Assembly (NCBI RefSeq): GCF_032362555.1
Contig: NC_083518.1
Location: 3,484,501-3,548,500, forward strand
Reading direction: 5' to 3'
Length of the DNA stretch: 64,000 nt
From: Amyelois transitella
Lineage: Eukaryota > Arthropoda > Insecta > Lepidoptera > Pyralidae
Shown: piece by piece, positions 8,425-32,753 of the stretch
Position numbering within the stretch: the first letter of the stretch is position 1
How the letters are laid out: every line of letters starts with the position of its first letter
The notes under the pieces: generated by a model
Seen by the model: the letters and a program-made list of their open reading frames with translations, nothing else
The model's database searches: none
Told to the model about the DNA's origin: nothing
Translations under genes and position numbers: made by a program

Positions 8425-9949
8425 ATGGCTGACCTTTATAAAACTAAATCCACAACTATATTAGTACCTGAAGATGTAAATGAGTCGGTTTATAAATTGA
8501 AGATTTTTAATAGTTCTATGAATGTTTTGGTTCATATTTTAATTGGAATTATTGTGGGCGTGACAGTGATATTGGTGTATAGTTTTGGATCACCCCCCAG
8601 TTGGGGAATGCTTCATATGCTGCTATGTGTTATTGGAGTAAGTTTATTAAGTTATTGCCATGCTTAAAGTATTCAGTTTTCAAAAGTACTATCAACTACT
8701 TTATAACAAAAGCAGTTTGAATTTCCGAGCCTTAAAAACTGCTGCACATAAGTTCTGCATGATTAATGTTGTACAGAATTACTATTTTTAAATGACATCA
8801 AATATCTTTTATATTTTGTGATCTTCAATTTTGTTTTTATGTGTATTTGATGACCTAGTTGTTAATTTGAAGCTTCAAAAATCAAATTATCAAAAAGGTA
8901 TACGAAACCAGACATCTATCAATGGTTTGATTTCTGTGGAATTAAATAAAATTAACTCTAACTTTACTGATTTTTGTCAAGATTTTGACTATTCTTTAAT
9001 TCAGGTTAATAAAAGCAAGTTCCAAGTAATTAAATATTCAAGAAGTAAAAAAATACGATTATTCTTTGCAATCAAATTATTTTTAAAGGGCGTGTAGTTA
9101 AATCTATAATAATCATTTAAACAACAACCTATTTAACTTCCAGTACCAACTCCTGATGGCGGAAGGAATACTGAGCCTGTCTCCTGACAACGGGTGGTCC
9201 TCATTCATGAAACTAAGGGACAAGAAACGAGCCCATTGGATATTGCAAATTGTTGGCTCTGTTCTAGCCATTATTGGGACTGTTATGGAGATCATGCAGA
9301 AGAACGTGCATTTTGACTCTTTACATGGGAAATATGGTAAGTTTAATCTCATATTTTATCATTTATCTGAAGAAAAGGGCGACTGACATATTAATTTGGC
9401 AAAGAAAGTATTTTGATAATACATAATTTTAGATAATTTATAATACTTAAATGAAGCTAGAATAACACATCTCTTTGACAATATACTCCATAAGTAAACA
9501 AACAGATATTGATAACGATATTTAAAAATACTGCAGAATGTGATAAGTGTAACAACGCATTAATGCATCATTATCATTTAATTCGCGAAGATGACAAGAC
9601 AATTATAATAATAAATTATAAAAATTTTAATTGGTCTTTTTCAGGACTGGTGGCAATGGTGTTCACAATTCTATCATTGATCAACGGCCTAACGTCATTA
9701 TATGCGTATGAGTGTCGAAAAATTATACCCCCGATAGTTTCCAAAGTTAGCCATAGTTTGTTTGGATGCTTTGCATTTGTCACCTCGTCTATATCTTTAT
9801 GTTATGGGTTTGATATGCAATGGTTCAGGGAATGGTTAATTATTGAAGAATTAGGAACAGTCATAATAGTATTTACTGCTTTATTTACTTTCATTGTTAT
9901 TATTAATCCATTTGCAGTTTTATACACTAAATATGTAAGTAAAAGATGA
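8425..9949 (+). CDS. Cytochrome b561 / CYB561D2-like transmembrane reductase, gene 1
   Basis: Exons 8425-8637, 9144-9336 and 9645-9949 join to 236 aa. Introns are GTAAGT/CAG (phase 0) and GTAAGT/CAG (phase 1), at the same two sites as in the other copies. Six hydrophobic helices are visible. Helices 2-5 carry the four candidate heme ligands His64 (LHMLLCVIG), His102 (RAHWILQ), His132 (LHGKYG) and His172 (VSHSLFG); the 38-residue gap between the first two is constant in the array. The family moves electrons across a membrane from cytosolic ascorbate to an acceptor such as ferric iron or monodehydroascorbate; that function is inferred here. The ATG at 8425 aligns with the starts of genes 2-5. 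Gene 1 is the most divergent of copies 1-5 and lacks the TATA-ATG arrangement seen in genes 2-4. It keeps the HG motif after the third His with a following Gly, as in vertebrate CYB561D2. Confidence 0.9.
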
Positions 9950-9995
9950 TTTGAAAACTTGTTTTACTTTGTTTTATTATACAAACAAACTTTAT

Positions 9996-10001
9996 AATAA
10001 A
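9996..10001 (+). terminator. Poly(A) signal of gene 1
   Basis: AATAAA lies 47 bases after the stop codon of gene 1, a normal distance for an insect mRNA 3' end. Confidence 0.55.
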
Positions 10002-10263
10002 AAGGAGAAAATGTTGACTAAAGCTTAGGAAAATATATAAGAATGAGATAGGTGACAAACTTTTGGAGTTACATTGTTTTTTTTTTTAATTTTAATCTGA
10101 AACAATATTTAGTTCTCGATGTTTAATAATTACTAATTATAAAAAGATAAATTAAAAAATATGATAATTGAACTAAGTTAAGCAGCTAAACTTAGTTCAA
10201 ATATTATTTAAAGGAATAAACACCGTGTAAAAATAAAAATACTTAACTGAAAATCCAAAGAAA

Positions 10264-10424
10264 CGTACGTGCTCTTGACAGTAGCAATCATTAAATCGCA
10301 AGTAACTTTGAAATACATAATACATAAATATTAATAAAGTGCACGCAGCGATATGATTACATCTATTGAAAATTCTCAGATTACAATCAGACTTCTATGT
10401 ATTAGGAAGAAAGATATATATAAG
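10264..10424 (+). promoter_or_regulatory. Upstream region of gene 2, shared with gene 3
   Basis: Blocks here recur in the same order before gene 3 (13069-13230): CGTACGTG followed by ACAGTAGCAATCAT, then AATAAAG(T/C)GCACGC, then GAAAATT(C/G)TCAGATTAC. A TATA box (TATATATAAG, 10415-10424) sits about 90 bases before the ATG. The conserved GCACGC is the reverse complement of a GCGTG core that bHLH-PAS factors can bind; this is only a suggestion. Confidence 0.6.
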
Positions 10425-10505
10425 GGCATATCTTGGAATACTACCACTTTTCCAAACTTTCCTAACGCAAGTGCACTGTTTGTTAGTTCATAATTTTGTC
10501 AAAAT

Positions 10506-11838
10506 ATGGCACTGACTACTAATCACAAAGATGACTTTGATGCGGAAAAAATTAAGAATTCAAAGGAAATGCTAGTTCCAGCCGAAGATTCTGATGTGAA
10601 ACTGAAGACTTTCAATAATTCTTTGAATATCTTGTCTCACATCCTCATTGGTTGTACGGTAGCAATATCAGTTCTTTATACCTTCAGAGAAGGAACAATG
10701 AGCGCCACAAGAATGCATATTATTTTATGTGTCCTGGGGGTAAGTCGTTCGTAAAAATACTTAACCATCGTGAATTAAAAAAAATTGTTTTTAGTTCTTT
10801 TTAGTCTTCCATTACTTTTGTCTTAATGTTTGTTCAATGAACTATGCGATATTTTTTATCATTAATATGACAAAAAAGGCAAAGAAATCAGTTTCATAAA
10901 TATATCCCATAATAGGTTTGGACTCAGTGATTACAGTACTGATATTAGATGCTGAAAAAGAAAATCATATAATTTTTTATGAAAATTTAGCAAAGCATAT
11001 GGACTTGAAAGTAATTGATTCTAAAATTTAATTTTTATCTTGCTTTTCAGTACCAATTACTAATGGCCGAGTCAATTTTAAGTCTATCACCTCACAACAG
11101 TTGGTCGTCTTCACTAAAACTTGTTCATAAACGTCGTGCCCATTGGATTCTACAAATATTAGGATCAGGATTAGCAATTGCCGGCAGTATCATCATATAT
11201 ATGCACAAAACGGTGCACTGGAATACACTTCATGGACAGTTTGGTAAGTTTTCTACTTTAATGCGAAAATATTTCTTTTTCTTAGTAACAAAGTTGTTTT
11301 CATTATCTCACGATATATATCAATGATGAGGTAGACAGAGCCAACAGTCTTGAAAAGACCAAAAGACCACGTTAACAGCTGTATGACTTATTGATGGAAT
11401 TAAGATTCAAAAAGTGACTGGTTGCTACCCCATCGCTTAATAAAAGTATCTCAAATTGGTCAGCCTTTGCCTTAATTGATTTAGTTTTAAAAATTACATA
11501 TTTTATCATAACAATTTATTATATCTTCAGCTCTTGTCGCCGTGGTCTTCACCTGTGTTTCCTTCATCAACGGCCTATCATCACTCTATGCCTACGAGCT
11601 TCGACGCTTTATACCTGGCATACTCTCCAAAATTACCCATATTCTCTTCGGGACCGTGGCATTTGTTACAGCATCAATAAGTCTCTGTTATGGCTTTGAT
11701 AAGAGATCCTTCAGAAATTGGTCTACATCAGAAATGGCTGATACTTTTATAGCGTTCACCGCTATATTTACATTTGTAATTATAGTGAATCCATTGATCG
11801 TATTTTTTGATAAGACTGTTAAATCATTCAGACGATGA
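10506..11838 (+). CDS. Cytochrome b561 / CYB561D2-like transmembrane reductase, gene 2
   Basis: Exons 10506-10739, 11051-11243 and 11531-11838 give 244 aa. Both introns are GT-AG, phases 0 and 1. Candidate heme ligands are His71 (MHIILCVLG), His109 (RAHWILQ), His139 (LHGQF) and His179 (ITHILFG) in helices 2-5; a further His134 lies five residues before His139, the same spacing as in CYB561D2 proteins. The charged N-terminus (FDAEKIKNSKE) is probably cytosolic, and the protein ends in basic residues (KSFRR). It should be an integral membrane two-heme electron carrier using ascorbate; substrate unknown. Its closest relative is gene 3, with a similar upstream region, so the pair looks recently duplicated. 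Intron 2 carries a degraded family B repeat. The start is the first ATG in frame and sits about 80 bases after a TATA box. Confidence 0.93.
11309..11466 (+). repeat. Family B interspersed repeat in gene 2 intron 2
   Basis: Diverged copy of the family best seen at 17401-17655, with the GTAGACAGAGCCAACAGTC core and the later GACTGGTTGCTACCCCATC block. It ends about 65 bases before the exon 3 acceptor. Confidence 0.7.
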
Positions 11839-13068
11839 ACGAAAGGATTCTCTTGAAAATTGTTATGTTTTTCTTTATGGGGTGTAGCAGTAAAACTTTG
11901 TCCTTTTTTTATTGCTGTCTAAAATAATGTATTTTTATTACAACTAATATATATATATTATATTTTTTACATTTGCATACGTTTAAAGATTATGTAAAAA
12001 ATAGGTACCTGCCAGAGCTAATTTGTCTCTCTTTTCCAATAGTTCACTACAATATATAAACTCAGCCATTCACACACAATACACGAAATATTGTGTGTGA
12101 AATGGTTGCGTTTGTTCATATTAAACAAATGATTTTGGTTTTAATTTTTTCCTCATTTCCTCCCAAAGTTTATCTTTATGAAAATAATGAATAATAAGAA
12201 TTATCCCTGCATTATTTTTTAAGATGAATAGTAGTGAGGAATTATTGAATTTTAAAATTGAAAAATAATTGCTAAGAGTGTCGGTGGTCGAATCTACAGA
12301 TTTAAATGCGTGTGCCTGGTGAAAATGCGTAATGAATGAAAGGCATACGTTCAAATCCCACCTCGGCCATGTTCCAATGACTCTTTTTTAAAGTTTATTA
12401 TTAGTATTAGTTTGAACACCAACCAATGCTCTGACCAAGAGGGAAAACATCGTGAGGGAATCAGGGACATATTCAGGCAACTGGATGTGAAACCATGGAT
12501 CCGTAACGGGTTAGGTTTACCTGCAAAGGTTGCGATGGTCAGATGGGAGTCATTTTGTGTAAAATTTGACTCACCCAATCCAAGATCCATGGTCAAAAGC
12601 ATACCCCGAACTCCTCTCCAGATAGGCGAGGTTGCAACCGGGACTAAAACCAGGAGGAAGAGGAAGTAGTGAGTGTTTGTAGTGAGTTTTATTTTCATTT
12701 TAGCCAGGCAAGTTTCAGAATTGGGAAGCTCTGCAATGGCTTGTCTATCCGTGGCGCTCAAGCGTTAATTCATTTATTGGCGATAAGCATTCTTTATGAT
12801 GCTATCCCACACCACTTAAACTAAAATTTGATACTTAGTGATGATGCGATGAGACAGACAACGTGTTTCGTCTATCAGTTACTCTTTATCATGTAGGTGG
12901 CGTGAATTTGGAATAAATATACTTATTCCAAATTACTTACTATTAATTTTACAAGTTATATAAAAACAAAAAGGGTAAGTAAATAGGAAATAACACTTAA
13001 AAGTCAGAAAAATATATACATTGTTTTTTAAAAAATATTATTATCCATGTTAAAACAAAAAAGAAAGG
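11839..13068. other. Intergenic between genes 2 and 3
   Basis: No gene. It holds a 15-bp-arm hairpin (12066-12080 with 12090-12105, core ACACACAAT/ATTGTGTGT), a family D repeat (12445-12668) and a 12-bp-arm palindrome at about 12905-12933 (AATTTGGAATAA). The open frames at 12351-12761 lie within the repeat and are not genes. Confidence 0.6.
12445..12668 (+). repeat. Family D interspersed repeat
   Basis: Matches 25008-25216 (same strand) and 59036-59300 (opposite strand). Shared landmarks in order are AACATCGTGAGG, AACTGGATGTG, GGTTAGGTTTACCTGCAAAGG, GATCCATGGTCAAA and CCGGGACTAAA. No terminal inverted repeats are seen, and the element class is not resolved. Confidence 0.7.
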
Positions 13069-13230
13069 CGTACGTGACCTTTACAGTAGCAATCATCAAA
13101 ACTTAAGCAGTTATCATTTTAATACCTAAATAATAATAAAGCGCACGCTTCGATAACTCAATCAATTGAAAATTGTCAGATTACTTACAATCAGATTTAT
13201 GTATTTATAGTAAGAAAGAGTATATATATA
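13069..13230 (+). promoter_or_regulatory. Upstream region of gene 3, shared with gene 2
   Basis: Carries the same ordered blocks as 10264-10424 (CGTACGTG, ACAGTAGCAATCAT, AATAAAGCGCACGC, TCAGATTAC) and a TA-rich TATA-like run at 13221-13230, about 85 bases before the ATG at 13311. Confidence 0.55.
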
Positions 13231-13310
13231 TATTACGGTGCATCTTTGGACATCCTCATTTTCGTGAATTTTCTCAACACGTGTGGTTTACTTATTTATA
13301 TTTCATAAAA

Positions 13311-15361
13311 ATGTCACTCGCTACTAATCACATAGATGACTTCGATGCGGAAAAAATGAAGGATTCAAAGGAAATGTTAGTTCCCGGAGCCCACTCTGAT
13401 GTGAAGTTAAAAATCTTTAATAGTTCTATGAATGTCTTGACACATATCCTCATTGGATGTACAGTAGCAATAGCAGTTCTGTTTACCTTCAGAGAGGGAG
13501 AAATGAACGCCACACGAATACATATAATTCTATGTGTTCTTGGGGTAAGTTGTAATGAATCCTTATTCTTTTGTCCGCATAAATTTTATAGATTTCTTAC
13601 TCGCTCTTAGTTCTAGCACAAAATATGAATAGTACTTTCTAGTTTTTTATCTCTCATACTTCTTTGCAAAAGACAAAGTATTTTTTGGTTGCCGCATTAA
13701 AACCGTACTTAATTTTTAAAAAATCTACAAAAAATTTGATGCGATATTACATATTTTTCCCATTCATTCTTAATTCCATAAAAAAGCATACAACTGAACG
13801 TGGCTCTTTAGTCTTTTCAAGGCTAAAGTCTCTTCCTACCTTTTAAGGGAAAAAGACGTTATAATTGCCTATAATTAAAATGTATGTACATATTTTCTAC
13901 AGTAGAAATCAAATTCAAGATATTTCATATTTTTTCTTTGACTATACGAAAAACGTTGTCTTAAAATGTAAGTAGCCTTGTAGGTTACTCTGAAGATAAC
14001 GATGAATGTATTTGCTATCGCTAACCAGATGATTGTGAACGTGTAGTGTGTGTGTAGAAATTGTTATAATATCTCATATTATTCTTAACTCATTACCGTG
14101 GAGAATAATGAGAAGAGAATTATGAATGCGGATGAAGCTAACAAAAATATGTAGAGATTTTGGTAAGTGCTACCCCTCTGGGAAAGAAGCGTTATTTTAT
14201 GAACGAATACTTATTTAACTCAGTAGTAGTGTGTGTGACGGTTTAGCTGAAATTAATCGACAAAAACTGCACGATATTTTTAAATAGTTATCTACTGTAC
14301 ACACCAATTTTTATATAAAACTCGTCATTAGAAGGTAAACTTGTCATTTAGTCTACTCGTATAAATATCACTAGTGACATTAAAATTACCGTGGAAATAT
14401 AAAAAATTAAATGTCTGCTTCGAAAGTATTGAAAATTTATTTCTTCTTTCCAGTATCAATTATTAATGGCAGAGTCAATTCTTAGTCTGTCACCTCACAA
14501 CGGTTGGTCGTCTTCACTCAAACTGGTTCATAAACGTCGCGCCCATTGGATTCTACAACTATTGGGATCAGGTCTAGCAATTGCAGGCAGCATCATCAAA
14601 ATTTTAGACAAATCTATTCACTGGAATACTCTTCATGGGCAATTTGGTAAGTTTTCTATATTATTTCGAAGATGCATGTTACGGAGACACCATAAGTTGA
14701 TAACTTGTTGTTTTTTTGTTATACATTTCATAAAGTGTAACTGCAATTGAAATATTTATTTGTCAACATTAACTACATCATAACAAACGTATGCCAAATT
14801 TTTTTTTTTTTTTAGCGATTGTACGGTAATAATTATGTCAATATATAATTTAATTAAGATTTACCAAAACTAAAACTGGTGTAATAATACAATTAATCTA
14901 CAAAAACTGAGTAAAATATATCGAAATACATAACAGATTTACTCGTCCAAAACGCACACCTGGTTTCTTGTTTGCGTCATGAACTTTATTATTTAGGAAG
15001 CTACATATAAAATATATCCCATTTTTCATAATGATGTGTTATTTCCTCTTCAGCTCTTGTCGCCATGGTCTTCACCGGCGTTTCTTTTATTAACGGCCTT
15101 GCATCTCTCTACGCGTACGAGCTTCGGCGTTTAATACCTGGAGTACTCTCTAAGATCACCCACATTATTTTTGGAACTGTTGCCTTTGTATCAGCGTCAA
15201 TCAGCCTCTGTTACGGTTTTGATAAGAATTCTTTTAGAACTTGGTCCACATCAGAAATGGCTGATACATTTATAGCCTTCACCGCTATATTTACATTTGT
15301 AATAATAGTCAATCCATTAGTTGTATTTTTTGATAAAACTGTTAAATCATTCCAACGATGA
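13311..15361 (+). CDS. Cytochrome b561 / CYB561D2-like transmembrane reductase, gene 3
   Basis: Exons 13311-13544, 14454-14646 and 15054-15361 give 244 aa. The ATG at 13311 (MSLATNH) is chosen over an upstream in-frame codon because it aligns with the gene 2 start (MALTTNH) and lies downstream of the TATA-like run. Introns are GTAAGT/CCAG (phase 0, 909 bases) and GTAAGT/TCAG (phase 1, 407 bases). Candidate heme ligands are His71, His109, His139 and His179, at the same positions as in gene 2. Six helices are visible, with HWNTLHGQF before intron 2 and a basic end (KSFQR). By eye most residues are identical to gene 2, with the differences concentrated in the N-terminus. Expected role: transmembrane electron transfer with ascorbate as donor (family inference). 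Intron 1 holds a family C repeat fragment. Confidence 0.92.
14108..14210 (-). repeat. Family C repeat fragment in gene 3 intron 1
   Basis: Contains GAATTATGAATGCGGATGAA and CTACCCCTCTGGGAAAGA, matching the copy at 1130-1310 in the same orientation. Confidence 0.6.
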
Positions 15362-16146
15362 TGGATTGAAATCTCCTGGCACACTTAAAAATTGTGTTTA
15401 TTAAAATCTTAGTCATTTTGATATGTTTATTTACCTATCTGAATATCTAGTTTAAAATATCTATGACGCAAGTATTATAATATTGGTATATATAGTATTA
15501 TAATGACCATGCAAAACTTAATCTATAATTGTCTATAATCTTACACAGACAGAATTAAGCAATAATTATATTATCTGCTACAGATAAAGACTGATTTTCT
15601 GCAATGTGTAATTTTAATAATTTATGAAATATTATAATTGTATCTAACTACTTATGAATAATTTTGTAACGCAATATTGAAGTAAGTTAATAAGTTTTTT
15701 TTTATTTTTTTAGCGCAATTTGTTTAAATTTGTATTAAAATTTAATCAAATTTGTTTGATTTTCATTCATTAACTAATTAATCGGTATTTTCTTCATTCC
15801 CATTAGTGTTTCCTTCTCTCCTTCCTTTAGCACTTTCCCAATTTCACTCTTCGCCACTTCGCTTTGGGGTACGCTTTTGACAGTATATCCTTTAATTTTC
15901 GAGTCAATTATATGGTTTTACCTTATAACTTCCTTTTAACATTGGTTTTCATAATAATTTGTTGTTAGAAATTGACGGAAGAAAACACCAACTTTGTGGC
16001 CTATATTACGGCTAACACACGTGTGACGACGAAAAATAATTTTTGAGTCACGCGAGCTGTAAATTGTTATCATAATTTATGTTTTAATGATTGTGAACAC
16101 TTTGTTAATCAAATAATCGTCAAATTTAAGATTATGATCTCATTTC
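15362..16146. other. Intergenic between genes 3 and 4
   Basis: AT-rich sequence with no gene and no clear repeat. Unlike the 2/3 pair, it shares no obvious long block with other upstream regions. Confidence 0.5.
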
Positions 16147-16156
16147 TATATATAAG
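16147..16156 (+). promoter_or_regulatory. TATA box of gene 4
   Basis: TATATATAAG lies 80-90 bases before the ATG of gene 4, the same sequence and spacing as before gene 2 (10415-10424). A TCAGTG start-site-like motif follows at about 16198. Confidence 0.5.
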
Positions 16157-16235
16157 TGGGACAGTGATTATGTTCAACGTCATTTTTAAATATTTGCTCA
16201 GTGCGCGGTGTTGTATTGCTTTACAATAATTAAAC

Positions 16236-18006
16236 ATGACATTCACTCAGAGTCAGAACGATAAGTTTGATGCTGAAAATTTGAAAGATTCAAAAGAAAT
16301 AGTTTCTTCAAACACAAATTACAAGCTGAAGATTTTCAATAATGGTATGAATCTTTTGGCTCATATCCTTATTGGAACTGTGGTAGGAACAGCAATACTA
16401 TTTTGCTTTAGAGCTGGTACAATGGATGCAACACGGATCCATATTATTCTATGTGTGTTAGGGGTAAGTTGTTGCAGATTTAATTATTTATTTTTATAAT
16501 GTAAACATTTTCTTTCCTTTTATTGATTTAAAAAACAATAAGTCATAAAAAAAAATTTTTTACTCTGATTCTGATAATCGTTTATTTTTCTTCAGTCGTA
16601 GTTAAAATATTAAAATATAGAGTGCCTTAAGATACTGTGTGAAATACGTCGTATAATTGTAATGTAATACTTTCTTTTCCCATAGCTCATAATAAATGTA
16701 TTATATGTCATGTCTTTAGAGAGTAGACAAAGCCAGCAGTCTTGAAAGAGGCCACATTCAGCTGAATGGCTTAATAGTGGATTTGACATTAAGATTTTTA
16801 TAGGTTAAAAAATTTATCTCAAATTTATAATTTTAGAAAGACACATGTATGTCTTAGTCGAATAATATTTATCTCGTTGAAGATGTTAAAATTGTTGAGG
16901 CTAAATTACATTTTAAACAACAGTAATAAACTATTTTAATAACAACTTTTCTTTTCTTTTTTTTTTCCAGTATCAGCTACTAATGAGTCAAGCAATTTTA
17001 AGTTTATCACCTCACAATAGCTGGTCTTCATCACTTAAACTCGTACACAAACGTCGGGCTCATTGGGTTCTCCAGATTTTAGGATCTGGACTAGCAATTG
17101 CTGGCAGTATCATCAAAATTTTAGACAAAACTGTCCACTGGAATACTCTTCACGGACAATTTGGTAAGTTTTATGCAATACAAATGGTATATAGGCTCAA
17201 TTTATTTTTATTTTTGCTCCTTTAAAGTTTCACTTAAAAACATGCTTAGCAATAAATACACTTAAATTGTAACACTATCGATTGATAACTTTATTCTTAA
17301 AATCATGAAGTTTCCAATAATATCTAACCTAACCTATCTAACTGTTGAATGGTCCTAAAGTATTATCATAGAAACCTGGCTTTGGGACGAAAACTAACAT
17401 ACATACATATGGTCACGTCTATATCCCTTGTGGGGTAGACAAAGCCAACAGTCTTGAAAAGACTGACAGTCCACGTTCAGCTATTTGGCTTATTGATAGT
17501 ATTGAGATGCAAATAATGACAGGTTGCTAGCCCATCGCCTAAAAAAATAATCCCAAGTTTGTAAGCCTATCCTTAGTCGCCTTTTACGACATCCATGGGA
17601 AAGAGATGGAGTGGTCCTATTCTTTTTTGTATTGGTGCCGGGAACCACACGGCACGAAAACTAATCAGGTAATAATATATTGTTAATTTTCTCTTCAGCT
17701 CTTGTAGCCTTGGTCTTCACTGGCGTTTCGTTCATCAACGGCCTCACATCTCTCTACGCCTACGAGCTCCGTCGCATTCTGCCTACAACTCTCTCGAAGA
17801 TCACCCACATTTGCTTCGGAACTGTAGCCTTTGTTGCAGCTTCCACCTGCCTCTGCTATGGCTTTGATAAGATGTTTTTTAGAAATTGGGCCACTCCCCA
17901 GTTGTCTGCCACTCTGATTGGATTCACCGCTGCCCTTACTTTCATTATTGTAGTTACTCCAGTATTCAACTTTGCCGATAAAACCCTAAGAGTATTCAAG
18001 CGGTGA
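16236..18006 (+). CDS. Cytochrome b561 / CYB561D2-like transmembrane reductase, gene 4
   Basis: Exons 16236-16463, 16971-17163 and 17699-18006 give 242 aa, with GTAAGT donors and pyrimidine-rich acceptors (phases 0 and 1). Candidate heme ligands are His69 (IHIILCVLG), His107 (RAHWVLQ), His137 (LHGQF) and His177 (ITHICFG). The six-helix plan, the YAYELRR segment after helix 4 and the basic C-terminus (RVFKR) match genes 2, 3 and 5. Intron 1 contains a degraded family B repeat, and intron 2 contains a nearly complete one ending about 43 bases before the exon 3 acceptor, yet the acceptor (CTCTTCAG) is intact. Role as for the family: membrane electron transfer, substrate not determinable. The ATG aligns with its paralogs and follows a TATA box at the usual distance. 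Confidence 0.93.
16705..16833 (+). repeat. Family B repeat fragment in gene 4 intron 1
   Basis: Diverged copy with the GTAGACAAAGCCAGCAGTC core followed by the CCACATTCAGCTGAATGGCTT block. Its 3' part is missing. Confidence 0.6.
17401..17655 (+). repeat. Family B interspersed repeat, near complete, in gene 4 intron 2
   Basis: Best copy of the family. Landmarks in order are TCACGTCTATATCCCTTG, GTAGACAAAGCCAACAGTC, GACAGGTTGCTAGCCCATCG, TTACGACATCCATGGGAAAG and GGGAACCACACGGCAC. Copies occur throughout the window on both strands. No coding capacity or A/B boxes are visible. It resembles a non-autonomous repeat common in moths; I cannot name it with certainty. Confidence 0.8.
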
Positions 18007-18055
18007 TGTCAATTTATTCATTTAATTCTAAGTTAAATTGTAAGATCATCACAAG

Positions 18056-18061
18056 AATAAA
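18056..18061 (+). terminator. Poly(A) signal of gene 4
   Basis: AATAAA about 50 bases after the stop codon of gene 4. Confidence 0.5.
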
Positions 18062-19975: not shown

Positions 19976-19996
19976 CTGGTTGGTTGGTTGGTTGGT
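19976..19996. repeat. TTGG simple repeat
   Basis: About five tandem GGTT units. Confidence 0.8.
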
Positions 19997-20917: not shown

Positions 20918-22527
20918 ATGTGTGCAGATAAAATAGATCCAGAAAATATCACGGATTCCGATACAATATTACTTCCCAATAAACAAGACGATTATAAACT
21001 TAAAGTTTTCAATGGATCTATGAATCTCGTAGCTCATCTTCTCATTGGAGCAACAGTAGGAGTTTCAATACTGTTTTCATTTACATATGATTTCGAATAT
21101 TATGGCTCTAAGATTCATATTATTCTTTGTGTACTTGGGGTAAGTTTAGTTTTGGCTATGACTTACGAATTTAAACATTATCACTTTATTTATTTCTATT
21201 AATACAAAAGAATACGTTACCTTAACGACATGTTGATTATTATATATATTTTTAGGTAATTATACGACAAAATCTCTAAAATTTTATCAACTTTTTGTTT
21301 TTAGTTTGTAACGTTTGAAGCTATCGTTAGTATATATATTTTTTTTCTTCTTAATCTATCATCTTATGTTTTTTCTTCTTTTTAAAATCCCCTATTTTTC
21401 TGCCCATGAATGGTTCCTAGCGATCTTATACCTTCTTGTTCATCCTAATTCACTAATTATTTTAATGTTCTTATTTTATAGTATCAATTACTGATGGCAG
21501 AAGCAATTCTAACTCTTTCGCCTCACAACTCTTGGACATCTTCATTTACTTTCGCACACAAGCGACGAGTACATTGGGTTTTACAAATTATGGGTTCAAT
21601 CCTAGCAATAGTTGGCAGCTTTATTAAATACATGGATAAAACGGTTCACTGGGATACTCTTCATTCCAAATTCTGTTAGTATATCTTCTTTTCTAAAAAA
21701 ACTAACATTTTGTTTCAGTATGTCCTCTTGTGGAAATTAATTATTATTTTACTTTCACTAAAATTTGTTTGTGAACATTCATGCAGTTAAAAGGACCGCA
21801 TTTCTTTATAGTGAATACTTCAAATGATTAAAACTTTTATCTCTAAACTAAAGAGCGCCCGCGGCTTCGACTACGTAATACAAAAATCTCGTTATCTGCC
21901 GTAGATACGTACCAAAATTACAGCCCGATCAGTCTATGACTTTGGGCTGTGCGTTGGTAGATCGTTCAGTCAGTCATCTTTGCGTTTTATATATTTCGGA
22001 TAGAATAATCAAAATGATCATGATTGGTTTTTAATCTAAGCAACACTTTAGTTTCCAAACACATATTTAAAAATATTTACTATCTGACATAGGTACTTAA
22101 TTATAGTAGGTACTTTACTAGGTACTCCAATAAAAATTGCTTTCTTTCTAATATAGTTTTAAACATGGAAAAGTATACTTCAAACTGTATTTCAAATTAC
22201 TTTTTTATTTTATTTTCAGCGCTCGTGGCATTGATTTTCACAATCGTGTGTTTGGTTAACGGCGTCACTTCACTCTTCGCTCACGAGTTGCGTCGTGTCA
22301 TTCCCGGGACTTTATCTAAAATAACTCACATTTGTTTTGGAACTGTGGCATTTGTTGCATCATCGGTCTGTCTTTGCTACGGTTTCGACAAATCTTCCTT
22401 CAGCGGATGGGCCACGCCGCCAATGAAGGCTACCTTCATTGCTTTCGTCGGTATCTTTACTGTTATCATCATTGTCAATCCGATCATCAATTTTGTCGAT
22501 AAAACTGTCAAATCAATTAAGCGGTAA
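20918..22527 (+). CDS. Cytochrome b561 / CYB561D2-like transmembrane reductase, gene 5
   Basis: Exons 20918-21139, 21482-21674 and 22220-22527 give 240 aa. The intron 2 donor is GTTAGT instead of GTAAGT; reading through it would hit a stop at once, but the phase 1 junction restores the family frame. Candidate heme ligands are His67 (IHIILCVLG), His105 (RVHWVLQ), His135 (LHSKF) and His175 (ITHICFG). The Gly that follows the third His in genes 1-4 is Ser here (HS for HG), the only such change in subfamily 1-5. Other family marks are kept: the KLKVFN N-terminal block, six helices and the basic end (KSIKR). Role is inferred as membrane electron transfer from ascorbate. No TATA box at -90 is evident. 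An RTE-like repeat fragment lies in intron 2. Confidence 0.92.
21845..21990 (+). repeat. RTE-like LINE 3'-end fragment in gene 5 intron 2
   Basis: Begins with GCGCCCGCGGCTTCGACTAC, the typical start of a repeat widespread in moths, and ends with GGGCTGTGCGTTGGTAGATC and a CAGTCAGTCAT run. It resembles RTE-type LINE 3' sequence; the class is assigned from memory of similar moth repeats. Confidence 0.55.
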
Positions 22528-22680
22528 AATGTTTTTAGTTTTAATCTCCAAAAATGCATTTTCATTCGCATCATTATAACGTAGGTAACGTTGAAAAAAA
22601 AATTAAAACATATTTCTTTTAAGTGGCACTCAACTAAAAAAGAAATGATTCGTTTTAGAATCTGCATACATCTAATCACG

Positions 22681-22853
22681 AGGTAGACAGAGCCAACAGT
22701 CAGAAAAGACTGTTAGGCTACGTTTAGCTGTTGTTTGGCTAAATGATAGAATTTATATTCAAATAGTAGTTCTATAGTCTAAAAGAAGAATCCCGAGTTT
22801 ACAAGCCTATCTCTGAGTCAACTTTTACGACATCAGTACGTCACCCGGGAACC
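22681..22853 (+). repeat. Family B interspersed repeat
   Basis: Partial copy starting at AGGTAGACAGAGCCAACAG and ending at CACCCGGGAACCAG, with internal losses relative to 17401-17655. It lies between gene 5 and SINE copy B. Confidence 0.7.
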
Positions 22854-22905
22854 AGAATTATAATCTGATTATTATAAACTTGGTATTGATTATTATTGTG
22901 ACACA

Positions 22906-23167
22906 GACGGCCTCTGTGGCGCAGTGGTAGTACGCTTGCCTGTGTCACCGGAGGTCCTGGGTTCGAATCCCGGCCAGGGCATGATGAGAAACGAACTTTC
23001 TCTGATTGGCCTGGGTCTTGGATGTTTATGTATATAAGTATTTATTATAAAATATAGTATCGTTGAGTTAGTATCTCGTAACACAAGTTTCGAACTTACT
23101 TCGAGGGTAACTCAATCTGTGTAATTTGTCCCGTATATATTTATTTTATTTATTTATATTGTTATTT
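22906..23167 (+). repeat. tRNA-derived SINE, copy B
   Basis: Best-preserved copy of the SINE. The A box is TGGCGCAGTGG (22917-22927) and the B box GGTTCGAATCC (22960-22970), within a head resembling a tRNA. A body containing GAAACGAACTTTCTCTGATT follows, then a TATATTTATTTTATTT-type tail. It is collinear with copy A on the minus strand at 1966-2216. Because its promoter boxes are intact it could still be transcribed by RNA polymerase III. The open frame 22893-23084 on the other strand is an artefact of this element. Confidence 0.9.
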
Positions 23168-24327: not shown

Positions 24328-27300
24328 ATGTTTGTCGTTATTTTACATTCGGGCTCTGAATATTGTAGAATGGTAACCTGGGCCGTTCTAGTCGGTTTAA
24401 GTCACACACTCATCGGTGCAACTGTTATGTCCGTTCTAATGTATAGCATTCATACGAAATTTTATGACAAACATATTATCCTGTTCGTTTTTGGGGCAAG
24501 TATCTATTTATATTTATTATTTATATTATAACTAGTTTCCATCTGCGGCTCCGCTTGAATATACATATGAGTACATTAGTAAATAACAAAAAAACGCAAC
24601 TCTTCCCTATCCCAACTCATATTATAAATACGGTAGTGTATGTGCATATGTATAAGAGTGAAAGAGAAAGAAGTATTATGTTGTCTCCAGCACACATGCC
24701 ACCATGATGGATTTTGGACAGCAGTTCATGATAGAAGGTACAGTGAGCGTGTGTGTCTGAGAACCTATAAGCCGGTGGGTAAGCGAATCACATCAAATAC
24801 GACAGAAAGCTTGCTTGTTAGATTTTTAACTCTTCACAGTTAAACGATTGCAGCAATTTTGATGTATACTGGTAGAAATATGGGAAAGTACATACAGAGA
24901 CTTTTTTTGGTGGTTTCGGAAACAATTACAAACATGTGAGACAAAAGTAAATTATAGTAGTAAAAGTAATATATGAATATAACTTTTACCTTTTTTAATA
25001 AAGATTACCGTTTTATCCATCGTGAGGAAACCTGCACATTCATGTAACTGGATGTGTAACCCTGGATACAATATGCGTTAGGTTTATCTGCAAAGGTCAG
25101 ATGGGATTCGCTTCGTGTAAAAACTCACCCGATCCAGGATCCATGGTCAAAGGCATACCCTGGGCTCCTCTAGAAAGGAGAGGATGTAACCGGGACTAAA
25201 GCCAGAAGGATGAAGACAAAAGTAAGATTATAGTAGGAAATTGACTTATGCAAGCCAAAAGTCGAATTGCCTTTTGGCCTTGCAACATATTGATAGGCGT
25301 TAACAAAATACGAGTATAATAATGCCAACACATTAACGCCTTTATAGTCTGAGACGTCGATGACGATGCTTTAAATTAGAAAAAGTAGAGAAATAAACCT
25401 TGGTTTATTATGTATTGTCAATAAATTTATACTCCATACTCTGATGCGAAAAACTCTTACCATATCCATTATATAAAAACAATATGAAAATTATTAAACT
25501 ATCACCTTTCATCGTCCTTTTGAACAAGTATTTTTTGATACAATATCAATGGTACAAACATATAATCTTCCTCATAAATAGGGTCTTATTTTCTTAAAAA
25601 AATAAATGCGTTTGACGTAAAGCTGCCTCATCGTAAGCAAAATGCCTTTTTTACATTTCCTTATCGTTTCTACTAAATTTCTTTTAAGTTATATTCTTAT
25701 TTTTTTCCTTGATGTACATAAAAAAATTTAAATAACTTAGACATCATTTATTTATTTATGTACACATCACGGAAAAAATAAAAATATAACTTAAACTAAA
25801 GAGAAATTTAGTACAAGGGCACTACTTATTTCTAGAGAAATTGCTTGCAGTAGGCCCACGACGGTGTGGTTTACAGTACACGCCACCTTTACAAACTCGC
25901 TATTTTGTGCGAACACTTCAGCGCAACCAGGGTAAATACCGAGTATTAGCACACAATGGCCACTATTGTCGCTATCAGTTTTATGCCAGCTATAACGTAG
26001 ATCACTTGTGACTTTATTGGCGCCAAAGACTAGTTTCAGGCTCATTGAGGCTATTTCCCTAGTGAGTGACAAGTATATTTAAATGAAGCTTTGTCACGAG
26101 CTTTAATGTATGATTCGTTCGTAGACAAGACCTAGATTACCTAACTCTTCTTCTTGCTTAGTCAGAAGCCACAGCTAAATCGTTTGTCTGACATGAGTAA
26201 AGTTGGCATGCAGTTTCTTAATGTGGTCTGGGGCTGCATTCGGAAAGGGTTTGCCAAAATTCAATTATTTTTACACGGGCAGAACCGCTAATGTATTCTA
26301 ATGGTCCCATAAAATAAGACAACCAACTATATAATTATCCTCGATGAATTAGTCGTAGTTATTTTTAGATAATTTTTTTTTTAAAAAAGGTCCTTTTGTT
26401 CCAGTTCCACTTTTTCACCGCTGAAGCTATACTATTCTTAAACTTTGCGAACGGCTTGGCTACTCCTATGCGGGTTAGGTATTGTCCCCTGACGTTATAA
26501 TCTCAACATGATGCTCATTAATATCTCTTTTTACAATTACAATTATTTAGTACTGTAAGATATTACAAATTTGATACGACGTAGAATGACCACTGCTAAA
26601 CATAGGCCTCCCCAAATGACTTCCACCTCGAAGAAAACTTTAATTGTTATTCTTCTGTTACTTTTACTCTAAAAGTAAATCTGTTTATTAACCATTTAGC
26701 CGAATCATAAATAGTCTCCTTCTAACCGCAAATCATCACATGTGATATTATCCCATAATTTATGAATGATAAAAAGTAATGTAAAATGTCGTTTCAAAAT
26801 AAATACTAAATGTGTTTGGGTAAAATTTAAAGAGTTGAACAGGGACTTTTTTGTTATCCTGCACATTCTTATAGAAAACTGCGGGCAAAAGTCTAGTGTC
26901 TCTAATAAAGCTTTTGGTTTAGTTGAAGCACCGTCGATTCGCTCACGGCCTCCTGCAAATTTGTGGATTTATCTGCATCGTTTTGGGAACCCTGTTCGTC
27001 ATCTCAGAGTTTGAATTATCAGGGGCACCTCATGGTATAATAGGTAAGTTTACACATTCATTAAAAATTAATGATTTGATAACTGTTGTTTCACTCTGAT
27101 CAACTAAAGTGACCAATTATAATGGATCAATGTACAAAATAAAATTTTTCATTTTTAAATTGTTATATCAGATTTCTGGTATGAAAAAAAACGTAATTAT
27201 GTATATATCTTTCATATGGCACGATTCCTTAATTGTTCTTTTGTATCATCGACATTTATCAATCTTTGAATGTAAGCTCATCAGTTAAGGTTTGTCTTGG

Positions 27301-27728
27301 CTTGATCTTTCACTTATTTTTACATTCGCCTTACATTTTGAGAACTCAATTTTAAAGCGTAAGTATATTTACTTAATTTACTTGGTTCCCATTCGTCCTC
27401 TCAACATAAAAAAAACATTCATTCCCTCTTTTATTCCTGTAAAAATATAAAAATATTTATTTGTTCATCAGGTCTTGTATCTGCAGCGTTAGCTCTATGC
27501 AGCTGTCTTTCAAGTATATTTGCAGTTTTTGGTAAAGGCGATATCAAACTCATTCACATCGTCATAGGTTTGCCCACATTCCTGTTATCTTCCATCAGCC
27601 TTTGCCTGGGATTCCTTGAAACGGAGTTCGAGATCTGGGCAGGAAAATCTGTGGTCTATACCCTTATAAGCTTTGTAACGTTTTACACTTTGATCATAAT
27701 TATTAAAGTTTTAATGAAATTGTTGTAA
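24328..27728 (+). CDS. Cytochrome b561 / CYB561D2-like transmembrane reductase, gene 6 (divergent, extra intron)
   Basis: Four exons, 24328-24495, 26405-26473, 26923-27043 and 27472-27728, give 204 aa. Junctions 1 and 3 match the family sites (phases 0 and 1); the intron at 26474-26922 (phase 0, donor GTTAGG) is unique to this copy and falls in the loop between helices 2 and 3. Intron 1 uses a GC donor (GGG/GCAAGT). Joined, the segment from AEAILF to HRRFAHGLLQ has the same spacing as in gene 2, which supports the model. Candidate heme ligands are His49, His87 (38 apart, as in all copies), His116 (APHG) and His148 (LIHIVIG). The N-terminus is the shortest of the array, with an in-frame stop just upstream of the ATG. 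The loop between helices 4 and 5 is about eight residues shorter than in genes 1-5, and the His five residues before the third ligand is absent. Likely a membrane electron-transfer protein; it could also be weakly expressed or decaying, but no frame break is seen. Confidence 0.82.
24533..24600 (+). repeat. RTE-like repeat start in gene 6 intron 1
   Basis: ACTAGTTTCCATCTGCGGCT resembles the ACTAG…GCGGC start of RTE-type repeats seen at 28512 and 46544. Only a short piece is recognisable. Confidence 0.35.
25008..25216 (+). repeat. Family D interspersed repeat in gene 6 intron 1
   Basis: Collinear with 12445-12668: ATCGTGAGGAAACCTGCACA, AACTGGATGTG, GATCCATGGTCAAAGGC and AACCGGGACTAAAGCC occur in that order. 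Confidence 0.7.
25791..26072 (-). CDS. Unrecognised antisense open frame within gene 6 intron 1
   Basis: A minus-strand frame of 84 codons from its first ATG (the internal MSLKLVF start, near 26045) has a balanced, coding-like composition and higher GC than its surroundings. A potential splice acceptor (CTCACTAG) lies just upstream of that ATG. I recognise no domain. It could be a single exon of an unrelated gene, a decayed gene fragment or chance. It sits opposite to gene 6 inside its unusually long first intron. Confidence 0.2.
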   Translation of the reverse strand: MSLTREIASMSLKLVFGANKVTSDLRYSWHKTDSDNSGHCVLILGIYPGCAEVFAQNSEFVKVACTVNHTVVGLLQAISLEISSALVLNFSLV

Positions 27729-28054
27729 CAAGTACGATGTTTTATTTCTTTAATTTCCAATTTATACGGTAAAAGAAATAAAATATACTAGTATACTGAT
27801 GCACAAAGTAAATACCTTTTTGTGTGATGTTACTCGTAATTCAGTGCAACAACGAATTTACAATTAAGATACAACCCGCAGAATAAGAGCATTGTGCATT
27901 GTTATTTACTTAATGTCTTATTATGTACTACTAAAAATTTGTTATATACAATAAAATATTCACAAAAAAAAAACAAACAAGAGCTTTAAAATGTATGTAA
28001 CATGGATTAAATTAAATAAACATAGTAATTTACATGAAAGTTATTTTAATAAAA
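27729..28054. other. Convergent gap between genes 6 and 7
   Basis: 326 bases between the 3' ends of gene 6 (+) and gene 7 (-). AATAAA at 27777-27782 is the likely poly(A) signal of gene 6. Nothing else seen. Confidence 0.6.
27777..27782 (+). terminator. Poly(A) signal of gene 6
   Basis: AATAAA 49 bases after the stop codon of gene 6. Confidence 0.5.
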
Positions 28055-29796
28055 TCAACGGCTATTGTCACAATGCCGTTCGTAACAACACAATAGTTTC
28101 ATGAATCCATAACTGACAATAAGAAGTGTAGCTAAAATACAAATGCATGCCATAAAAATTGCTATTTCCTGTGATTTGTTGATCCACTCAAGAAAATTCC
28201 CATCTGGCGAAAACAGACATGCAACAAAGCAGATCGATGAAAAGACATAAGCGGTCAATCCAAAAAATGCATGCAAATATCTGAAGCATCTGGCGCCAGT
28301 CGCCTTTGCCAATACACATGGACCTATTAGCATTCCTAGTGTCATCAATGAAAGCGCTATTACACCTGAAAACAATTTTAATATACATCAATTGTTAGGA
28401 AATAAGTCAATGTAAACAGTTAAATATCAGACACATGCTTAGACAAGGAATTTGCTTCAAACACAATTGCACTTTGAATAGAGCACTACCTTGGTCAACA
28501 TACATTTATAATACTAGCTATTGCCCATGGCCCCGCCCGTGTAGGCTTTTATTCAGACCTATAATAGACATAGTTTATCCTACCTATCCTATCCCCCTGT
28601 CAATTTTATTTAGAGACGATTACGTTAACCAGATGTTACTCTTCTTTGATCGCCACCTATCAATTTGTTGAAAAAATATTTAATATACAGAAACTCAATT
28701 TTTGCCGTCTTATTATATGTATTATATTAATTATTTAATTCAATGATAAAAAATTGTGAGCCTTTATATTGTGAGCAGTATTGATTTCCTGTGGCCTTTG
28801 CCTGAACGAAATACTATATAGATAGGTCAATTGTTGTAAGAGCTAGACGCGTTAAGAGATTTTCTTACAACGGCATGAGAAACTGTACTGCAGTTGAGAC
28901 AAAAAAGCCAATTACCAAACAGACAATGTGTGTTATCCACCAGTAAATCCGGCAATTCGTCTGCCTTAGAAACTAAAAGTAGGGCAGATCCAGTAATGTT
29001 TAGAATAGCAGCAGTCAACTGAAGGATAATGTGGTTTATCTTCCTGTCACGAGGCTTCAATGGAATCGTAGGTCCGTGCAGGTAGGTCGTCATCAAGATT
29101 CCTGCCGGCATGAGCAACTGAAACTGGTACGAGTAATATTGATAGTTATTGATAAATACAACAATGTACAACTAGGTATACTTCAAAGACGTGGACCTTT
29201 AAAAGCATCTTAACATTATTCCTATAATAAGGTATTCAATTATAGAATTCTGTTAACTGAATGCTTTATACATCAATTCCAATGCTAAGTTTTTATTCAT
29301 TAATACAGGATATTACGAACATCACGTCTTAATAATTGTCATATTTTTTGGTTTCACAACATTGGTGGACATCGAATATAAGTAAGAATAATTAATCAAA
29401 TATAATAGAAAGTACTTAGAAAAAATAATCCTAGCAAAAGGTCAAAGGAGACATGCTCGCATTAAAAATGTAGTTTTTCCTCTGCAAAATAGGTATGTGT
29501 GAATAAATAACATGACGAAATGTACCAACCCCGGCTGTGCAAAAGAAGATGTGTAAATTAGTTTCAAAGTGCTGTTCTGTCCACGATGCGGAATATAGTA
29601 ACATTACGATCGTATAAAATCCCATCAAAATATAAGCGAACGCCACAAATCCAGCCCACCATATTCTTCTGCAGTACTCTCTTCTAGGGATATCAACAAG
29701 AACTATTTTCACGGGACCCTCGAATGTCTTCACCGCATTTCTTTTGAGACATTCAAGGTTACATGTGTTTCCTTCTACTGGAGGGTGGGATAACAT
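28055..29796 (-). CDS. Cytochrome b561 / CYB561D2-like transmembrane reductase, gene 7 (inverted copy)
   Basis: Minus-strand exons 29796-29530, 29123-28916 and 28365-28055 give 261 aa. Introns have donors GTTGGT (phase 0) and GTAATT (phase 1), the two family positions. Candidate heme ligands are His82 (NLHIFF), His120 (INHIILQ, 38 apart), His155 (NTHCLF) and His190 (YLHAFFG). The longer N-terminus with CNLEC and a VKIVLV strand-like stretch before helix 1 is shared with gene 8, so these two form a subgroup. The HG pair after the third His is HC here, and the C-terminus is Cys-rich (KLLCCYERHC) rather than ending in K/R-R. It is the only copy on the minus strand, convergent with gene 6 and divergent from gene 8. 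Likely a membrane electron carrier; changes around the third His may alter substrate use. An RTE-like fragment lies in intron 2. Confidence 0.88.
28512..28625 (+). repeat. RTE-like repeat fragment in gene 7 intron 2
   Basis: Starts ACTAGCTATTGCCC and contains CCCGCCCGTGTAGGC, typical of degraded RTE-type repeats in moths. It is opposite in orientation to gene 7. Confidence 0.45.
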
Positions 29797-31178
29797 GGTT
29801 GAGCACTAAAAGTAAAATTTATTGCGGCAAATCTTGTTTTTATTATTATAATTTGTTATTATGTAAGCAAGAAACATAATATGTTATAAAATAAAATTGT
29901 AAAAATGTAATATTTTGAGGTGAAAGTATTTTAAATGACAAATACAGTTGTAGATCTAGATATTAGCTATAAGGAGCCGTCAAACCTTAGAGTATTTACT
30001 TGAGTATGAGTAAAACGCCTTTTTGAAAATGTGCGATTGTGTTAATGATTAAAAAACATTAGTTTATATTTATATGTCCGTGAATTGAGTGAAGAAATGG
30101 CCTGCCGTTTAGACCTGGTAGGTAGGTATGTACTTATGATAAGCCTGCGGGGATTGTACACAACCTTAATAAAAAATCATTTTGGTGAGGTCACACTTTT
30201 TAATATACCCAGGCCAAGTTCAATGCTATTTCAGATTTCCAAACATTCACCATGTCGACTCGTCAAAGACCCGAATATAACAACGGCGCGCCTATACAGC
30301 TACGTCCCATTCACGGAGCTCCAAAAACGCCCGACTTTCTGCTTTTATTTATATGTACAAAGGATGTTTTCATCAACGGCTATGAAAAACCCCTCTCATT
30401 TTTTGAATTTCGGATGAAGTTTGCTTTCCGCGCGACATCGCGCACAAGGGATCGCGCCATGTGTGTGTACGATCCGCTTTTTCACGCTCCCATAACTGAA
30501 TTACCTACCCACGAATATTTTTTTACATTCTACCTCACATTTACTGCATGGGCTTAAAGTGTAGTTTGCTTTAAAAAGGATTAAGTTAAATTTGCTTTGG
30601 AATAGGGGAGCGGAAAACGTCCCGCGGGCTCGTCCTGTGCTGGCTAAATGTGAAACATTGGATTCTCTTCAAATATTAATTGTTCAAGATTTTCCTTTTT
30701 TATACCTCTATGGTGAGTAAATGTAAGAAAAAGTTATCACCTTTTTCTCGGGTAGAAGTATGCACGAATGTGGCAAGTACAAAGAACTGTCTACCCCTCC
30801 GGGAAATAGTTACTTCAAACAATACAAGAACTATGTAAGCTCTTTTACCTCTATTCTTAGAAAATAGTACGAAACTACGCAATACTTTTCTTCACTTTCT
30901 CAACCCTTAGTCTCAAACTCAGTATCTCATTAATTAAGTTAATGGAAGCAATAAGAAGTACCTACCTAATTGTCTATTTTTGAATACAATACTTACTAAG
31001 ATATCCTTAAAATATCTACATCTATGCTCAAAGGGCCCTGAAAAAAATAAAGTGAAAATTTGTTATCTGTGATTCTTTGATCTATCAAACAATAGTCAAA
31101 GCTTTTGTTTATTTTAATTCTTTTATTGTAATAATTTTTAATGAATCAACAAATCCAATGCAAAATTCTACATAGATC
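29797..31178. other. Divergent intergenic region between genes 7 and 8
   Basis: Upstream region of both gene 7 (-) and gene 8 (+), so it probably carries both promoters. It contains a GC-richer stretch (about 30180-30480) with two overlapping open frames and a short family C fragment at about 30745-30805. No TATA at the spacing found in genes 2-4. Confidence 0.5.
30252..30557 (+). other. GC-richer open stretch between genes 7 and 8
   Basis: Two overlapping plus-strand frames stay open (30085-30417 and 30252-30557) across DNA that is clearly GC-richer than its flanks. Neither translation resembles a known family, and they cannot both be real. A regulatory island or an old gene fragment are alternatives. 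Confidence 0.25.
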
Positions 31179-32753
31179 ATGGAGTGTTTTAATATTCCAG
31201 GTTGCAACCCGCAACCTGCAGATTGCAATCTGGAATGCGTTAAAGACCGTGAAGAAATTGCAGAGTATACAGGCTTAGTAAGAATAGTTTTGGTCAGAAC
31301 TCCAAGGGTAAAGTACTGGTGTAGAATACTTTGGGCTGGGTTAATTGGCCTGTCTTACATCTTGATTGGGGCTACTTGTACTATTGTGTTCCTCTTTATG
31401 CAGGCCAATAAACTGCCCGCAGCTGAAAATGTACATGTAGGGCTGTGTACTATAGGGGTGAGTTTTATTTCTTTTATCACTACATAACACCTATTAAGTT
31501 CCCATTTTTCTTTGTGTGTATGTATGCGGTAATCAATGAAAATTGTGAACAGATTTTGTTCCTGTTTGAAATATTGGAAAGAGGGTTTTCTGTGAAAGTG
31601 TTGTATTTATAAATGCTACCGGTATGAACGCCGGGGCGGGTCGCTAGTTTTATATATTTTAATAAGCAATTTCAGTTAGCTCTGAGCTAACTTTTTCGGA
31701 GTTATGAAAACCCCAACTTTATCTTGGCTTCAAGGAGTACACATAAATATTAAGGATGAGATCCTCGAACTTTTTACGCCAAAAACCATGCCGATAGTTA
31801 ATTTTCAATCTTCCAGCATCAAATTAAGTCTTTTTAGTACCAGCAGCATAACATTTTACAGTCTTTATCTAACAACGCTTCCAAAAGTAATAAGCCATTT
31901 TACTCGTTTCAGTTTCAATTGCTGATCCCTTTAGGGATTTTGATGTTGAGTGGCCTCAATGGCCCTTCAGCTCCTATGACTGTGAATCATAGGAAATGTG
32001 GCCATGTCCTTATACAGACTATTGGAATACTATGCAGCATCGTCGGGACGTTTGCTGTCCTAATGTTGGGAAAAGTACAATCGGTCTCAATTTTTACACT
32101 TCATTTTTTTGTAGGTGTGTCATGTATAAAATGTTTTATTGAAGATGTATAAGATTATTAGTAACAATTTCCCTCTCTCTCAGCTTCGCGTGTACCCAGT
32201 TGTACCTTTCGGCTTATAATACTTTATCTTTGGTAACATTTAGTAAAATAATACTATTTAAACCAAGAATCGGGACAGTTTCGTCAACTATTTCGGTATT
32301 TTATTTCGTATTTTCAATTATGGTGTTGTGTAGAATACCTTATTATGAGACTTTTATTTTTTACGCTATATAGGTAAGACTTATTGTATGGGCTTGATGC
32401 TATGGTCGTAATTATTAACTTACTGGTTAAATACCTACTATATTATAAGTTTAATTTCAATTTCAGGTACATTATCGTGTATTATGGCTCTGGTTGGTAT
32501 AGTTTTTGGACCTCTTATGCTCTGTTTGGAAAAGGACAACTGTTGCGGGGAATGTTTGCAGACAGTCCATAAGAGTGCTGGTATATTATGTTTACTGCTC
32601 TCATCTTTATGCTTTATAACTGGTCTAAAGAAATTATCATTTAAACAATGGTTACCTGTTCCAAATTGGTTTTTATGGATAACTGCGCTATGTGTTATTT
32701 ATACACTTATTATATTCACTGTACCTTTCATTAGATGTTTATATGATAAATGA
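31179..32753 (+). CDS. Cytochrome b561 / CYB561D2-like transmembrane reductase, gene 8
   Basis: Exons 31179-31457, 31913-32114 and 32467-32753 give 255 aa, with GTGAGT and GTGTGT donors. The exon 2 end (GTAG before GTGTGT) was chosen because it makes the spacing from the third His to the helix 4 GP pair identical to gene 7. Candidate heme ligands are His86 (NVHVGL), His124 (CGHVLIQ, 38 apart), His157 (TLHFFVG) and His195 (TVHKSAG). The N-terminus (CNLEC, VRIVLV, WCRILWAG) matches gene 7, which defines a two-gene subgroup. The HG pair after the third His is HF, and the loop before the fourth His contains a CCGEC cluster. No basic K/R-R end. Expected to be a six-helix membrane electron-transfer protein; substrate unknown. 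It is the last gene of the array. Confidence 0.88.

Follow-up and report, generated by a model that had tools for sequence, protein, structure and literature searches.

Eight tandem cytochrome b561 genes in Amyelois transitella that fit insect Group 4B and are predicted trans-membrane electron carriers

A 64,000-nucleotide stretch of the Amyelois transitella genome (contig C14, positions 3484501-3548500; hereafter the window) carries eight intact cytochrome b561 genes within ~24 kb, at window positions 8425-32753. The array arose by repeated local duplication and belongs to a kind of family expansion already known from insects, of which it is a larger case. By sequence features and by exclusion, its members fit insect Group 4B of the family, together with three dispersed genes of the same genome (one on C3 and two on C18). 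We consider it fairly probable that the encoded proteins act as Group 4B trans-membrane electron carriers, and that for some of genes 1-5 the acceptor would be ferric iron in the gut.

The exons were read by homology and splice sites, and all eight spliced models predicted from the DNA are in frame, free of internal stops and 202-261 amino acids long. An earlier note on this DNA had claimed eight spliced genes, all of which were found with intact reading frames. Its coordinates are exact, with the first ATG at 8425 and the final base of the last stop codon at 32753. It left unmentioned the extra intron and GC donor of gene 6, and that gene 7 (29796-28055) is encoded on the minus strand, opposite to the other seven genes.

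Gene 1: 8425-9949, plus strand; exons 8425-8637, 9144-9336 and 9645-9949; 236 amino acids; clade of genes 1-5; PF03188 E-value 1.1e-24.
Gene 2: 10506-11838, plus strand; exons 10506-10739, 11051-11243 and 11531-11838; 244 amino acids; PF03188 E-value 3.5e-19.
Gene 3: 13311-15361, plus strand; exons 13311-13544, 14454-14646 and 15054-15361; 244 amino acids; PF03188 E-value 1e-18.
Gene 4: 16236-18006, plus strand; exons 16236-16463, 16971-17163 and 17699-18006; 242 amino acids; PF03188 E-value 3e-18.
Gene 5: 20918-22527, plus strand; exons 20918-21139, 21482-21674 and 22220-22527; 240 amino acids; PF03188 E-value 1.6e-19.
Gene 6: 24328-27728, plus strand; exons 24328-24495 (GC donor), 26405-26473, 26929-27043 and 27472-27728; 202 amino acids; PF03188 E-value 1.5e-12.
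Gene 7: 28055-29796, minus strand; exons 29796-29530, 29123-28916 and 28365-28055; 261 amino acids; PF03188 E-value 1.1e-11.
Gene 8: 31179-32753, plus strand; exons 31179-31457, 31913-32114 and 32467-32753; 255 amino acids; PF03188 E-value 6e-10.

Seven of the eight genes have three exons. Gene 6 has four, with an additional intron at 26474-26928 and a first intron of the GC-AG type, and its model is therefore the least certain of the eight. Exon lengths and histidine positions place the two conserved intron sites that had been claimed in all eight genes: a phase 0 site seven residues past the first haem-ligand histidine (H1), and a phase 1 site in the codon four residues past the third (H3).

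All eight proteins match PF03188 above the Pfam gathering cut-off (39.9-87.6 bits against a cut-off of 23; E-values 1.1e-24 to 6e-10), so that the protein search proposed in the earlier note bears out the family it had named. Its six helices and four conserved histidines were likewise recovered: six hydrophobic segments appear as Kyte-Doolittle peaks in each protein, and the haem ligands H1-H4 are kept in all eight array members and in all 13 aligned b561 proteins of the genome. A second Pfam family was not found in the eight models at E <=0.01; at E <=0.1, four unrelated families each match one array member (E 0.014-0.056), none of them a reeler or DOMON domain. Up to E 1, a search of the Protein Data Bank with the array profile gave a single, weak match (E 0.067), 4o6y, 'probable transmembrane ascorbate ferrireductase 2', a plant enzyme.

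The assignment to Group 4B was made on residues numbered by their offset from the haem histidines, H2-4 lying four residues before H2. The array proteins show the single domain of this group, basic residues at H2-4 (eight of eight) and H4-3 (seven of eight, with Gln in gene 8), a hydrophobic residue at H3+22 (Leu in seven, Val in gene 6), and absence of the Group 4A motif. All eight are furthermore basic at H2-3. Among 25 insect Group 4 proteins, basic H2-4 and H4-3 are reported in 23 and basic H2-3 in six only (PMC10691727), and the doubled basic pair H2-4/H2-3 may be a trait of Lepidoptera. Genes 1-5 carry Lys at H2+22 and His at H3-5 on the outer face; among genes 6-8, the Lys is present in gene 7 only and the His in none.

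To place the array within its genome (327 Mb, 33 contigs), we searched with PF03188, which gave 12 matches among 19 scored candidates, and with genes 3, 7, 8 and 6. Five b561 loci lie outside the array, at C3:11.96 Mb, C18:5.37 Mb, C18:5.44 Mb, C5:4.99 Mb and C4:4.86 Mb. Over the three exons, the C3 gene shares 49, 60 and 65% identity with gene 3. The two C18 genes (L009 and L010) are Group 4-like, lie ~68 kb apart and have the array's two intron sites. The C5 gene (L013) consists of two exons, without the second intron, and its protein has K-IINN-K-P-H before H3. This is the KXXXXKXH motif, described as a mark of Group 4A and human CYB561D2 (PMC10691727), and the C5 gene is therefore the CYB561D2-type gene of the genome. 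Intron 1 is common to the array and the C5 gene and is thus probably older than the array, whereas intron 2 is common to the array, the C3 gene and both C18 genes but not to C5.

In the protein of the C4 gene (L012), H1+20 is Arg and H2+22 is His, and the loop joining the first two haem helices contains two Cys. The gene appears Nemy-like, its two loop Cys resembling the cysteine-rich loop described for Nemy (PMC10691727). The array proteins show neither these features nor the motif of the C5 protein. Two look-alike frames follow it, at ~5666-5923 (RYSTLVDEAVIINTIGVV...) and 7273-7533 (EKYEKLDEESIVTNAIGMS...) of L012, and are possibly alternative C-terminal exons. A DOMON search gave five matches elsewhere in the genome, none with a b561 part among the PF03188 matches; the genome may hold a CG8399-type gene.

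No extra or broken copies were found in the window, where tblastn with 13 b561 proteins (E <=0.1) gave 160 hits, none outside the modelled exons. On C14 as a whole, PF03188 and genes 3, 6, 7 and 8 as queries found no further b561 copies; all hits fall within window positions 8452-32750, and the array therefore appears complete. One hit on C11 was dropped as a b561 copy, being at chance level (E 0.49) and containing an internal stop.

Divergence among the copies is considerable. Genes 1-5 are 47-85% identical among themselves, and genes 6-8 are 22-32% identical to genes 1-5 and 27-30% to each other. Nonsynonymous and synonymous divergence (dN, dS) were estimated with a Nei-Gojobori script for the 36 pairs of nine genes. 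The closest pair, genes 2 and 3, is 84.8% identical (dS 0.73, dN 0.08, dN/dS 0.11), and for the remaining 35 pairs dS exceeds 1 in 10 and is not computable in 25; the duplications are therefore not recent. Over the ten computable pairs among genes 1-5 and the C3 copy, dS exceeding 1 in nine of them, dN/dS ranges between 0.10 and 0.22, and genes 1-5, taken as pairs, are by these ratios under purifying selection. The local duplication claimed earlier holds. DNA-level direct repeats fall into three families, of which two connect genes 2-5 and the third connects genes 2 and 3. Together with the Pfam E-values, these families exclude chance resemblance.

The same divergence speaks to whether the array could be an artefact of uncollapsed haplotypes or misassembly, which we regard as very improbable. 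Tandem arrays carry this risk in general, and no other point favours it. Haplotype duplication and assembly error were rejected on the closest pair, which differs at 15% of residues with the dS given above. In addition, blastn (E 1e-5) found no long intergenic matches between copies beyond exons with their adjoining bases, the stretch upstream of genes 2 and 3, and dispersed repeats, and the inversion of gene 7 also argues against an artefact.

Trees from which the Nemy-like row was omitted support two subfamilies, genes 1-5 and genes 6-8, with 7 and 8 as sisters in the latter. More specifically, the 11-row tree (without C4 and C5) joins genes 6, 7 and 8 at 98/95 and genes 7 and 8 at 100/97 (ultrafast bootstrap/Shimodaira-Hasegawa-like approximate likelihood ratio test), and the corresponding values are 98/98 and 95/92 in a 10-row tree that includes C5 but neither C4 nor the C18 genes. 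For the 11-row tree the program warned that genes 7 and 8 are long branches that meet. In a 13-row tree that includes the Nemy-like C4 gene, gene 6 instead groups with Nemy, whose branch is very long, at 87/85; the program rates such placings of long rows as unsure. The earlier division into two subfamilies with genes 7 and 8 paired thus stands in both trees without Nemy, but gene 6 leaves its group once Nemy is added. The C3 gene and the C18 pair are placed on the genes 1-5 side, for the most part without resolution. A division of roles among array members, also proposed earlier, is a plausible hypothesis.

Alternatively, the array may work only in part, genes 6-8, or gene 6 alone, being decaying, functionless duplicates. 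Gene 6 is short (202 amino acids), with a GC donor and an extra intron, and genes 6-8 score lowest in the array against Pfam and do not have the H3-5 His of genes 1-5. Nevertheless, each of the three keeps the four haem histidines and six hydrophobic segments, with its frame open and its splice sites usable, although synonymous divergence from every other gene compared is saturated (dS not computable) or 2.78 (genes 1/7, where the single computable dN/dS for genes 6-8 is 0.32). Intact genes at saturated dS do not fit neutral decay, and we consider this explanation improbable.

Genes 2 and 3 are furthermore alike in the 250 bp before their coding regions.

Upstream stretch of gene 2: 10256-10505, plus strand; aligns with 13061-13310; candidate shared promoter.
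Upstream stretch of gene 3: 13061-13310, plus strand; counterpart of 10256-10505.

Here, 167 of 238 aligned bases are identical (70%), compared with 49% in intron 1, 58% in intron 2, 42% on the 3' side and 53% in the next 250 bp upstream. A random control of 100 pairs had a mean of 45.7% (standard deviation 8.7) and a maximum of 100%, probably from overlapping picks. A genome search with the gene 2 stretch found two places only, genes 2 and 3, the second match covering bases 2-167 at 76%, and a TATA-like run lies within the stretch. From this one gene pair, we infer that genes 2 and 3 may share a promoter. RNA elements, such as iron-responsive elements, gave no Rfam matches in the window at gathering thresholds.

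On family knowledge, the array proteins would be six-helix, two-haem b561 proteins with one haem at each membrane face. An electron from a cytosolic donor, ascorbate or cytochrome b5, would enter the cytosolic haem (H2/H4), cross to the outer haem (H1/H3), and pass to an extracellular or vesicular acceptor. Transfer across the membrane is expected because of the two haems, one at each face, and the basic cytosolic face (family knowledge; PMC10691727). Fire and Fire-like of Drosophila suggest by analogy that at least some of the proteins of genes 1-5 may pass it to Fe3+ at the apical gut membrane of larvae, and the Fe2+ so formed would feed a DMT1-type Fe2+ importer. A different acceptor or tissue is probable for genes 6-8, which are strongly diverged and do not have the outer-face His seen in genes 1-5.

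Fire and Fire-like are adjacent Group 4B duplicates reported as gut ferric reductases helped by the cytochrome b5 Firewood; each raises ferric reduction ~2.5-fold in S2 cells, and their double knock-out lowers larval iron by ~55% (PMC12218971). Larval-gut microarrays of Ostrinia nubilalis further contain two b561 transcripts, possibly related to the array and with CYB561D1-like and D2-like best matches, that respond to treatment (PMC5343837, PMC4014733). Ferric reduction by array members is thus a predicted role, drawn by analogy.

Several observations weigh against it. The Dcytb positions described as binding cytosolic ascorbate are basic H2-7, H2-3 and H4-7 (PMC10691727), and a basic residue occurs at H2-7 in none of the array proteins and at H4-7 in gene 6 only. 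Dcytb depends critically on the His at H2+22 for ferric reduction, and none of the eight has it. The CYB561D2 motif KXXXXKXH (Lys H2+22, Lys H3-7, His H3-5) is found in none, and no array protein has Lys at H3-7. Our trees cover this genome's genes only, and membership of Group 4B was assigned on features and by exclusion. No cytochrome b5 match lies near the array, the nearest on the contig, among the best candidates scored, being ~1.46 Mb away. Finally, only Fire and Fire-like, and not the neighbouring CG10337 and CG10165, are reported to reduce dietary iron (PMC12218971), and hence not every array member need do so.

An alternative is a different use of the same chemistry, in which the carriers would work in vesicles or in tissues other than the gut, recycling ascorbate or reducing some other acceptor, with iron not the main substrate. 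Group 4 is described as having the least evidence for ferric reductases, and all but one of the fly Group 4 genes as having moderately to highly restricted expression (PMC10691727); the missing Dcytb metal-site His points the same way. However, Fire and Fire-like belong to the same fly group, which does not conserve the H2+22 His either (PMC10691727), yet they are proven gut ferric reductases (PMC12218971). We therefore hold this alternative possible but unlikely, and favour Group 4B electron carriers with gut Fe3+ as the acceptor for some of genes 1-5.

A bolder extension, which we find rather doubtful, is that in Lepidoptera, reported to be without CG1275, an expanded Group 4B array took over ferric reduction. 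The gut iron reductases would then be genes 1-5 together with the C3 copy, perhaps adapted to the alkaline gut of caterpillars, with genes 6-8 using another acceptor and genes 2 and 3 co-regulated by iron through a conserved promoter. Plant-feeding larvae have an alkaline gut, in which ferric iron is poorly soluble. If genes 1-5 are indeed caterpillar gut ferric reductases, they provide exact targets for work on iron uptake in such larvae; otherwise, what remains is a clean annotation within a family whose expansion in insects is already known.

Around the array, we selected by eye ten open frames that lie outside the b561 exons, none of which matched Pfam above the cut-off (one hit, at E 0.035, fell short of it), and no open frame longer than 103 amino acids was found in ~9.5 kb beyond each window end. 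A dispersed repeat, its copies ~68-90% identical, occupies the last intron of genes 2 and 4 and sites across the window (11328-11474, 17398-17655, 22666-22834, 34646-34899, 39146-39402, 47862-48010, 53761-53936 and 57108-57258). An inverted repeat at 1967-2216 and 22906-23157 is 93% identical, the highest among the listed repeat pairs touching 8-33 kb. The Chorion_1 and L-fibroin families are typical of Lepidoptera and their near kin; Chorion_1 has 16 matches in the genome, 15 on C28 with 14 clustered at C28:1512795-1577089, and L-fibroin has four, on C20, and both speak for a lepidopteran genome. The genome profile search gave no match to PF03260 (30K lipoprotein), a point on the other side, although this does not show absence.

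Compared with known b561 groups, the array proteins differ from CG8399/SDR2 (CYBDOM) in having no reeler or DOMON domain fused to b561. With Dcytb, CG1275 and Nemy they share PF03188 and the four His, but all eight are without Arg H1+20 and His H2+22, both of which the C4 gene has; CG1275 is described as the insect gene closest to Dcytb, with none found in Lepidoptera (PMC10691727). With CYB561D2/TScytb (Group 4A) they share PF03188 and, with the C5 gene, the first intron site (phase 0). The label 'CYB561D2-like' given in the earlier note is nevertheless misleading, as the motif is absent throughout the array and belongs to the separate two-exon locus on C5. Its yardstick of vertebrate gene counts misleads as well, since insects are the right comparison, and their Group 4 is already multi-copy with species-specific expansions, five genes in Drosophila and seven in Papilio xuthus (PMC10691727).

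No description of this array was found in the literature searched, from which subscription journals were mostly absent. Its closest counterparts are other insect Group 4B proteins, such as Papilio xuthus XP_013172799, 802, 804 and 813, which are likewise single-domain, with four His and basic H2-4/H4-3, and belong to a multi-copy expansion in that butterfly too. In Papilio, one 4A and six 4B genes are listed (PMC10691727), compared with eight in one 24 kb array plus three dispersed genes here; the numbers of four of the six 4B accessions lie close together, suggesting a cluster in Papilio too. In Drosophila, four of the five Group 4 genes lie near each other, with Fire (CG13078) and Fire-like (CG13077) side by side as Group 4B duplicates and CG10337 and CG10165 18.5 and 37 kb off (PMC12218971). 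The fly complex has fewer genes, with other genes separating CG10337 and CG10165 from the pair, and its iron function is proven, whereas that of the Amyelois array is predicted from this likeness.

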